From the NCBI RefSeq assembly GCF_000204415.1, contig NC_015416.1:434001-498000 (forward strand): a stretch of 64,000 bases of DNA, written 5' to 3'. The notes beneath the pieces were generated by a model. The model was not told the DNA's origin and did no database searches. It saw only the letters and a program-made list of their open reading frames with translations. Positions 19,968-22,062 of the stretch are shown here, piece by piece. The translations under genes and the position numbers were made by a program. The DNA is from Methanothrix soehngenii GP6. Its GTDB lineage: Archaea; Halobacteriota; Methanosarcinia; Methanotrichales; Methanotrichaceae. Position 1 is the stretch's first letter, and the number at the start of each line of letters is the position of its first letter.

Positions 19968-20105
19968 CGTTCCACCTTAAACCAAATTCTAGTGTATCAG
20001 TTCCAAAATAGCATAGCAGCATTTAATGCTATGTACTGCCCAAGACCGGAAAAGAAGAGATGGTCTCCCGAGGAACAGCTCCTGCAGCTGGACGCTGGAT
20101 GCCGG

Positions 20106-20257
20106 TGGTCTGGCGATGCTGATTTCAATGGTGCTAAGAATATAGCTTTCTTGGGCCGCTATGTAGACCGGCCTGGAGGCTCGGAAGGACTTCCAAGTAT
20201 CAAGGCAGTCCTTTCAGGGCTACTGAAAGCTCCGATCTTTAGGCCGGAGTAGTTTAC
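20106..20257 (+). mobile_element. Solitary right end of the tnpB element (152-bp remnant)
   Basis: This stretch matches 3113-3264, the last 49 codons of tnpB plus the right-end hairpin and TTTAC, with two mismatches. Nothing upstream of 20106 resembles the element. It keeps the third RuvC aspartate region and, more importantly, the whole stretch that would form the omega-RNA scaffold. It is either a deletion remnant or a retained guide-RNA source. Confidence 0.85.
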
Positions 20258-20302
20258 ATTCGCTCCGCGCATTCCTTGTGCTTATCTCCTCTGAAACGAG
20301 AG

Positions 20303-20830
20303 ATGTATCGCATGGAATTCGAACTGCATCCTGCGATCATCATCGAGAGCAGAGCCTTTGCAATACTAGTGGCTCCATTGCAGATGCTGATCGAGTCCCT
20401 CAACGATCATCTGGGCATCGACAGGTATCAGGTCCTCTACATCTGCGGAAACTACTCTCGCGTCCTGAGCAGACTGGATCGCAGGTTTAGAGATCTGGAG
20501 GTAAGAAGGGCATTTACCGTCTTCCAGCTGCTAACCGTCCTGGAGGAGAGCCACCACACCTTGATGATCCTGGAGCATGATCCCCTGCTTTACGAGGGGG
20601 CTGGAGAGATGGTGGAGTATGCATCTATGGCCATGAGAGAGGCAGCGAAGGGCAGCATTTTGCTTCTCTATTCCCCCACCTCCGATCCTTATTTAGAGAA
20701 GATGATGACTTATGCCGACAGAGTATTCTGCTTCGCCGAGGGGCCTTGTGCTGCGCCACGGCTTTCTGCAAAGAATAATCGAAAAACGCAAGCCAGTTCC
20801 ACTGGCCAGACCACCCTGGAGAGCTTCTGA
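20303..20830 (+). CDS. Unknown protein ending in a PCNA-interaction (PIP-box) motif
   Basis: About 175 residues from ATG 20303 (ATG 20312 possible). The last seven residues are QTTLESF, which fits the PIP-box consensus Q-x-x-[L/I/M]-x-x-[F/Y] at the usual C-terminal place. The body has an alternating alpha/beta pattern: YQVLYICGNYSR, HTLMILEHDPLLY (Walker-B-like) and KGSILLLYSPTSDPY. This could be a RecA-like fold without a P-loop, but that is inference. The TGATG overlap with the next gene shows coupled translation. I do not recognise the family. Confidence 0.6.
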   Translation: MYRMEFELHPAIIIESRAFAILVAPLQMLIESLNDHLGIDRYQVLYICGNYSRVLSRLDRRFRDLEVRRAFTVFQLLTVLEESHHTLMILEHDPLLYEGAGEMVEYASMAMREAAKGSILLLYSPTSDPYLEKMMTYADRVFCFAEGPCAAPRLSAKNNRKTQASSTGQTTLESF

Positions 20831-21072
20831 TGGGCCGAAGCTTTGAGAGCGTAAGAATGGGGGTAAACGACCTATCTCTTCGCTGGTCCAAGGCCGGTCG
20901 AGCTTTAAAGAAGGAGGATCAGTCCTATGCAAAAGAGCTTGCCGACATGGCAAAAAAGCACTCAAGCGAGGCATTCTACGCTCTGGACGATCCTCTGGAG
21001 GCGGCGGTATTCTCAGTGCTGATCGAGCTGCTGAAAGATAGAGAAATCTATAAGCAGGATCCCGTAAAATAA
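20830..21072 (+). CDS. Unknown 80-residue helical protein
   Basis: A small, charged, mostly helical protein (MGRSFESVRMGVND...IELLKDREIYKQDPVK). Its ATG overlaps the stop of the upstream PIP-box gene (TGATG), so the two products are probably made together and may act as a complex. It is followed directly by the msrBA start. Not recognised as a known family. Confidence 0.6.
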   Translation: MGRSFESVRMGVNDLSLRWSKAGRALKKEDQSYAKELADMAKKHSSEAFYALDDPLEAAVFSVLIELLKDREIYKQDPVK

Positions 21073-22062
21073 GTGCTTATGAGAAGAGAGGATTCCCTGA
21101 AAGATTCCCAAACGAATTCCAAAAAGAAACTGACGCCGCTGCAGTTTCATGTCACCCAGCAGTGCGGCACCGAACCTCCCTTTCAAAATGAATTCTGGAA
21201 TAATAAACGACCCGGCATCTACGTAGATGTGCTCTCAGGAGAACCCCTGTTCAGTTCGAAAGATAAGTTCGACTCCGGTACCGGCTGGCCGAGCTTCACA
21301 AAGCCCCTGAAGGAGGATCGCATCATTGAGAACGTCGACACCAGCTATAATATGAGGCGGGTTGAGGTTCGCAGCAAAGACGCAGATTCCCATCTGGGCC
21401 ATGTGTTCGATGATGGTCCTGGGCCGACAGGATTGCGTTATTGCATCAACTCCGCATCCCTCCGCTTTATACCGGCTGAGGATCTGGAACGGGAGGGCTA
21501 CGGAGAGTATCTCAGCCTCTTCCGGGAGGATGAGGCTCGATCTGGGCATATGGAGAGTCCCGGGAAGGACGATCCAGACTATGAGCTGGCCACATTTGCC
21601 GCAGGCTGCTTCTGGGGGGTGGAAGCTCGCTTTCAGCAGGTTCGCGGGGTGCTGGAAACAAAAGTGGGATATACCGGAGGGACTGCTCCCGATCCGTCCT
21701 ACGCACAGGTTTGCACAGGAACTACTGGCCACGCTGAGGCCGTGCAGATAAAGTACGATCCGAAGGTCGTATCCTACAGGGAGTTGCTCTCCATATTCTG
21801 GCGGATGCATGATCCCACCACGCCCAACCGTCAGGGTCCTGATATCGGCACTCAATACCGCTCTGCAATATTCTACCATAATGAGGAGCAAAGAATAGCA
21901 GCAGAGGAATCCCGGGAAGAGTATGATCGATCTGGAGCCATTGCAAGAAAAGCAGTCACCCAGATCGTTCCTGCATCAGAATTTTTTGAGGCGGAGGAGT
22001 ATCATCAGGATTATTTCGCAAAGCAGGGGTCAGTACCCTGCCATGTATTCAGAAGAAAATAA
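21073..22062 (+). CDS. Methionine sulfoxide reductase, fused MsrB-MsrA
   Basis: 329 residues. The N-terminal MsrB domain (~18-145) has [11 protein letters not shown] and the catalytic Cys in [13 protein letters not shown]; the CxxC zinc pairs of some MsrB proteins are absent. The C-terminal MsrA domain (~165-327) has the catalytic GCFWG and GHAEAVQI, and ends YHQDYFAKQ. The fusion repairs both R and S methionine sulfoxides. The order B-A is the less usual one. GTG 21073 directly follows the upstream stop; ATG 21079 is an alternative. Confidence 0.93.

Follow-up and report, generated by a model that had tools for sequence, protein, structure and literature searches.

The two-gene unit at positions 20,303 to 21,072 of the window, as we call the whole 64,000-nucleotide stretch of Methanothrix soehngenii GP6 DNA analysed here, encodes iRadA and PPB2 (arCOG07300), two subunits of the PolB2 translesion mutasome. 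Our preferred reading, to which we assign a probability of roughly 0.78, is that these mutasome subunits, with iRadA as the clamp tether, are reunited with a polB2 gene that has split from them by a shared stress-response promoter. We infer that the complex assembles, binds PCNA and is induced by damage. The initial annotation had proposed an uncharacterised replication or repair complex. Its PIP-box-like tail and its idea of a repair-type assembly that includes a helical partner were right, but "uncharacterised" did not hold, as the system is already known: Makarova et al. 2014 (PMC4104785) and Timinskas et al. 2025 (PMC11791011) describe a set made up of PolB2, arCOG07300 (PPB2) and an inactivated RadA (iRadA). 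The initial interpretation is thus partly supported; the third subunit, polB2, and the shared promoter were missed.

The unit and its promoter comprise the following features.

20254..20289, forward strand: promoter element, core ACATTCGCTCCGC and then a TATA-like CTTATCTC; the best match genome-wide to model R1 (see below)
20312..20830, forward strand: iRadA gene, an inactive RecA/Rad51-like subunit of 172 aa, identified by alignments, predicted fold and the lack of Walker A
20807..20827, forward strand: codons of the putative clamp motif QTTLESF, whose placing and residues are conserved while the linker before it varies, and which lies in a disordered tail
20830..21072, forward strand: PPB2 gene (arCOG07300-like), 80 aa, with the MGR arm and three predicted helices

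Most of the coding details first reported for this unit were confirmed. ORF 1 ends in GQTTLESF with a TGA stop at 20828-20830 and is a 175-aa frame if read from the ATG at 20303; the TGATG overlap is present, the ATG of ORF 2 at 20830 having one base in common with ORF 1; and ORF 2 encodes the expected helical partner of 80 aa (three helices predicted), with a TAA stop at 21070-21072. The start of ORF 1 needs revision: an ATG does lie at 20303, but the likelier start is at 20312, nine bases later, giving 172 aa, since iRadA homologues begin at the second methionine (M[DE].EL in the homologue alignments) and this codon stands 54 nt from the promoter core. Placing the start at 20312 makes the core-to-start distance equal to that in relatives. 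Both genes are under purifying selection, with dN/dS of 0.17-0.24 for the window iRadA (compared with three relatives) and 0.11-0.12 for PPB2 (compared with two).

A bifunctional msrBA gene (window 21073-22062) lies on the same strand directly 3' of PPB2 and may share a transcript with the mutasome genes. Just 5' of the unit, an 86-aa frame (window 19992-20252) resembles the C-terminal end of TnpB and is probably a remnant; it contains DFNGAKNIA, which we take to be the TnpB C-terminal motif, and its Pfam match reaches only E 0.063.

No model in Pfam, NCBIfam or PHROGs scored above cut-off for the proteins of ORF 1 or ORF 2, and sequence searches of the PDB with iRadA returned nothing relevant; the fold search alone succeeded. 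The iRadA model has a RecA/Rad51 core (pLDDT 84) and a disordered tail at residues 148-175 of the 175-aa model. Foldseek gave RAD51, XRCC3 and RecA as its lead matches (E 3.6e-5), and a second fold comparison gave Z values up to 13.1. At 172-175 aa, and with a model that opens with strands, iRadA is without the N-terminal helical domain of RadA. Its ATPase site is lost, the Walker A pattern G....GK[ST] being absent in 25 of 25 iRadA rows; the RadA of the same genome keeps its P-loop (GEFGCGKT). The RecA-like core without a P-loop, suggested at the outset, is thus borne out by the predicted fold and by the missing pattern (0/25). Of the three-helix homotrimer expected of a PPB2 protein, the three helices are predicted for the window PPB2 (pLDDT 70), which also has an N-terminal arm of the MGRT/S type, MGRSFESVR, in which M1, G2, R3 and R9 are invariant in 22/22 rows. 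Homologues of ORF 1 occur in 36 and of ORF 2 in 30 of 50 Methanotrichaceae genomes, and 10 of the 22 oriented loci carry a B-family DNA polymerase further along that strand.

The system shares with the PolB2 mutasome (PolB2/Dpo2 with iRadA of arCOG07763, arCOG04294 and arCOG08101 and PPB2 of arCOG07300) its subunits, the iRadA-PPB2 order, the MGR arm, the inactive RadA core and the clamp motif at the iRadA C-terminus. It differs in that polB2 is 88 kb off, a shared promoter element replaces the operon, and there are extra intact iRadA genes. The haloarchaeal arCOG07763-arCOG07300 operon is likewise an iRadA-PPB2 pair without adjacent polB2, although according to PMC4104785 it is an additional copy beside a full operon, whereas the window PPB2 is the only one in its genome.

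The promoter element is about 36 bp long, with its core 54 nt before the window iRadA start (20312). A common element, TCAC[AT]TTCGCYCCGC...CCTTAT, stands upstream of 34 iRadA genes, and unlinked polB2 genes carry the same; its layout is a core, AC[AT]TTCGCYCCGC, whose first base is followed some 22-24 nt on by a TATA-like box, and a start codon at ∼54 nt from the core. The core-to-start distance is 52-56 nt in 29 of 30 fitted regions and 60 in the remaining one, four of the 34 upstream regions having been dropped as misfits to the core pattern (CCTTC- or CTTC-like variants). The window core reads ACATTC; the commoner form in relatives is ACTTTC.

A sequence-only model, R1, was built from 21 iRadA elements of other genomes and contained no sequence from the M. 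soehngenii genome and none from polB2. When this genome (3.03 Mb) was scanned, with E-values that are rough for these models, rank 1 was the window iRadA-PPB2 unit (E 3.3e-6), followed by the distant polB2 (rank 2, E 0.0025), an extra iRadA (rank 3, E 0.0027), the gene for a 154-aa protein (rank 4, E 0.0045) and the other extra iRadA (rank 5, E 0.059). The promoter element is the sole R1 match in the window. The core or a variant precedes 12 of 12 unlinked polB2 genes (L104 among these). Conservation was also assessed with the shorter pattern AC[AT]TTC[GA]C before 60 of 63 full-length iRadA frames, 24 within Methanotrichaceae and 36 outside (mostly Methanomicrobiales, plus Archaeoglobi and Thermoplasmata assemblies), three frames without a usable start having been dropped. 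It is found in 21 of the 24, and between 36 and 75 nt before the start in 33 of the 36, all of them at 50-58 nt, against a background expectation of 0.004 per searched window; the outside loci without the element are L141, L161 and L163.

Matches to R1 at E≤1 are found in 46 of the 50 Methanotrichaceae genomes. A second model, R2, was built from 34 instances of all classes. Apart from intact mutasome genes, 80 sites were chosen, 40 among the R1 matches listed and 40 among the R2 matches listed, and the families of the downstream genes were checked with Pfam and NCBIfam. The targets among these 80 sites chosen from the matches listed, all on the same strand as the element except where no target is given, are as follows.

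154-aa protein: at least 16, the commonest further target
Candidate small RNA: at least 12
RPA: at least 10
NreA: at least 9
Radical-SAM repair protein: at least 4
Small membrane protein, which precedes ThyA in the M. soehngenii genome: at least 3
Broken iRadA: at least 3; PolB2: at least 1
NrdD: at least 2, plus 2 with an identical promoter sequence
Small protein of a family that recurs between iRadA and PPB2: at least 2
Small HTH-like protein: at least 2
ExoVII large subunit: at least 1
No convincing target: 13

To the matches in the M. soehngenii genome R2 added a small-RNA locus (E 0.011) and nreA (E 0.022), as well as a site at L191:1209-1225 (C1:2416931) whose core lies in the 3' end of an RPA-like gene, before radA (E 0.079); the matches at nreA, radA and ThyA in this genome are each weak alone. 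A reversed-letter control, made from the same 34 instances with equal composition and information, produced 17 matches at E≤1 in the 50 genomes, the best at 0.197, and no match in the M. soehngenii genome.

The candidate small RNA is ∼100 nt long, has conserved GTGGCAAGGAAG and CCTACANGCTTCTGGG, and is found directly under the element and before unrelated genes (L337, L343, L349, L354, L364, L366, L301, L316, L363, L375 and L358, with L324, at C1:909759, in the M. soehngenii genome). It has no match in Rfam, and its consensus fold lends weak support to a structure, with 18 pairs, of which 4 show changes in both partners, and a covariation term no higher than -0.4. The 154-aa protein is helical (MSKNPEFAKYASDLARHQDAIRSANEDLIKLSQRFGRMMPK...) and is encoded at L244:1592-2053 in the M. 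soehngenii genome, with relatives at, for example, L283, L285, L299 and L311; the two copies scanned (L244 and L299) had no Pfam or NCBIfam match above cut-off.

Because the element precedes other DNA-repair and DNA-precursor genes, it would be the site from which a regulon for replication stress or DNA damage is controlled, and induction by damage is suggested by these target genes together with the damage-inducible PolB2 genes of Sulfolobales (PMC11791011, PMC7390963). RPA, NrdD and ThyA serve normal replication too, and the element could instead drive replication and precursor genes in step with growth or the cell cycle, with no damage switch. We consider this unlikely, as no targets are stronger or more widespread than the translesion mutasome and NreA, and the loci of the replicative family-B polymerase (C1:1711534) and PCNA (C1:1301996) are absent from the R1 and R2 matches in the M. 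soehngenii genome.

A damage-response element, the DDRE, is described in Sulfolobus (PMC5817253, PMC9738581); it has the sequence A(N)TTTC, sits upstream of BRE/TATA at -44 to -39 of the transcript, is damage-inducible and is bound by Orc1-2. Like the DDRE, the methanogen element has a non-palindromic ACTTTC upstream of the core promoter. It is longer, however (ACTTTCGCCCCGC), and its core is farther from the start, probably by about one turn; the window copy, ACATTC, departs from the hexamer ANTTTC, although most relatives have ACTTTC; and a search for the Sulfolobus arrangement, in which an Orc1/Cdc6 gene is itself preceded by the element, found no copy at either Orc1/Cdc6 gene of the M. soehngenii genome (C1:1435456, C1:1307499). 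Given the window ACATTC, the more distant core and the Orc1/Cdc6 genes, we do not class the element as a DDRE. No paper on the element in methanogens was found in the titles and abstract openings of the open-access literature, and, as far as our searches of that literature show, both the joining of an unlinked mutasome by a conserved element and the predicted regulon are new.

The polB2 gene of M. soehngenii (C1:363977-365998), 88 kb from the iRadA-PPB2 unit, has an intact frame whose end carries no clamp motif. PolB2 relatives match PF00136, and motif C reads GI[VI]DC in 23 of 23 Methanotrichaceae rows, that of M. soehngenii included; in it the first Asp is replaced, as has been reported for PolB2. 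PPB2 adjoins the window iRadA, and a PolB2 frame is present on 57 of the 79 named loci, with adjacent PolB2 in 0 of 7 loci of the window's clade (L112-L117, L122). No PPB2 match lies within some 1.5 kb either side of 12 of the 23 Methanotrichaceae polB2 loci. Of the 33 genomes with a completeness of 90% or more, both iRadA and PPB2 are present in 15, iRadA only in 3, PPB2 only in none and neither in 15, a co-occurrence for which p-values are inflated by shared descent and by linkage in other genomes. At the thresholds used, 5 of 30 iRadA genomes are without PPB2 and 6 without PolB2 (here too p-values ignore shared descent). Two further iRadA genes of M. soehngenii (C1:1885813 and C1:166578) are 94% identical over 591 bp and have tails ending QRTLEAYS; the dN/dS of 0.149 between them indicates that they are probably functional.

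Several of these observations would suit a pair that is no longer part of the mutasome and functions independently of PolB2, perhaps braking replication or RadA from the clamp, with polB2 acting alone or with another iRadA: the absence of PolB2 beside the pair in the seven loci of the clade, the purifying selection on the two extra iRadA genes, and the genomes that retain iRadA without PPB2 or PolB2. Such a departure is nevertheless quite improbable, because the genome keeps one PPB2 and one intact polB2, iRadA-PPB2 and polB2 are all under the same promoter element, and the PPB2 arm, which the published model places against PolB2, is invariant.

The last residues of iRadA, QTTLESF, fit the PIP consensus, and by their sequence they are a putative PCNA ligand. 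The motif was counted in full-length iRadA homologues from the 79 named loci, on which 66 iRadA frames were found and 3 dropped for low coverage, leaving 63. QxxL/M lies within the last 15 residues in 60 of the 63, and the full pattern Qxx[LIMV]xx[FYW] in 41; the same-locus controls have the full motif in 0 of 46 PolB2 frames and 0 of 80 PPB2 frames. In alignment A3 the commonest residue accounts on average for a share of 0.77 in the last seven positions versus 0.28 in the preceding 21-residue linker. Judged from these alignments, the iRadA clamp motif is under selection. Judged by the refuting condition set in the initial annotation, homologues without the motif but with the rest, the motif is weakened in part of the family: 22 of 63 homologues miss the full pattern, many of them ending QTTLEVS or QTTLEGI, although 19 of those 22 retain QxxL/M. 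The aromatic residue is missing in many Methanomicrobiales copies, so clamp binding there may be weaker or different, and the motif is gone from the truncated iRadA copy L112. In this lineage polB2 has moved away and itself lacks a clamp motif, so iRadA is the one subunit found with a putative clamp tether. That iRadA C-termini carry clamp motifs has already been reported (PMC11791011); their near-universality in the iRadA family, to judge from the homologues counted here, is an addition to that report.

We regard it as very doubtful that the conserved tail is a contact inside the complex and not a PCNA ligand. The many Methanomicrobiales iRadA proteins whose QTTLEVS and QTTLEGI ends have no aromatic would agree with an internal contact, but QTTLESF matches the PIP consensus, and the iRadA tail is otherwise disordered and free in the model. 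The text of PMC11791011 cited here also argues for a clamp ligand, giving the PIP pattern as QxxLxxFF and reporting high-confidence models of iRadA tails on clamps.

Copies of iRadA are scattered in some genomes. Genome G005 (loci L203-L222) has 35 iRadA matches, mostly broken fragments, yet one PPB2. The many, partly broken copies prompted the idea that iRadA is a transposable unit, which was dropped as pairwise DNA comparisons gave no common ends. Although iRadA genes are multiplied, dispersed and frequently broken, it is scarcely credible that the promoter element merely hitch-hiked with gene duplication or a mobile unit and is not regulatory, because genes unrelated to one another (RPA, NreA, NrdD, ExoVII) have it upstream at the distance typical of their class, and other orders, too, keep it 50-58 nt before iRadA. 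At L063:7009-9310 and L071:6651-8754 iRadA copies have insertions next to or inside them, flanked by direct repeats of ∼100 and 210 bp, and the L063 insert contains a TnpB-like gene.

A translationally coupled small ORF, ELQTAKEILAEVF.ARPGEVEEMI, lies between iRadA and PPB2 in many Methanotrichaceae loci, among them L010, L016, L018, L019, L021, L064, L065 and L069. We rejected it as a fixed fourth subunit because its family stands alone elsewhere, many times per genome. At L232:2022-2548 (minus strand) a 95-aa frame has an iRadA-like start joined to a clamp tail (MEFGLYPAFFML...KTSLEVFS) and is followed by the small ORF; from its sequence it seems to be an iRadA minus the core, with both ends kept.

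We propose that the unit supplies the clamp-tethering and scaffold subunits of a translesion polymerase, in which iRadA would contribute a RecA/Rad51 core minus its ATPase site and PPB2 a small helical protein. According to the published model, one PPB2 arm would lie between PolB2 and iRadA, and PolB2 would grip iRadA as Rad51 subunits grip one another. Tethered to PCNA by the iRadA tail QTTLESF, this complex would bring the polymerase to stalled primer ends, and the shared promoter would keep iRadA-PPB2, the separated polB2 and other repair genes in step. There is an analogy to bacterial ImuA-ImuB-DnaE2 and Pol V, in which a RecA-like protein and a small or clamp-binding partner accompany a translesion polymerase; the polymerase there is from another family, however, LexA is absent here, and the systems are not homologous.

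To our knowledge, Archaea are without LexA-type SOS control. The archaeal damage regulon that we found described (PMC5817253, PMC9738581) is that of Sulfolobales. We see about an even chance that the element is the control of an SOS-like damage regulon in methanogenic euryarchaea, which would take in the mutasome (even with a split polB2), RPA, NreA, anaerobic ribonucleotide reductase, the ThyA operon, the radical-SAM protein, ExoVII, the 154-aa protein and the small RNA, and that its ACTTTC core may share an ancestral archaeal damage box with the Sulfolobus DDRE. Across Methanotrichaceae the element connects the translesion polymerase with the partners it has been parted from and with other repair genes, and it stands before iRadA in Methanomicrobiales too. 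It provides a concrete DNA sequence for testing damage-induced mutagenesis in methanogens and for isolating the regulator, and it illustrates how common regulation can keep the members of a complex united once its operon has split.
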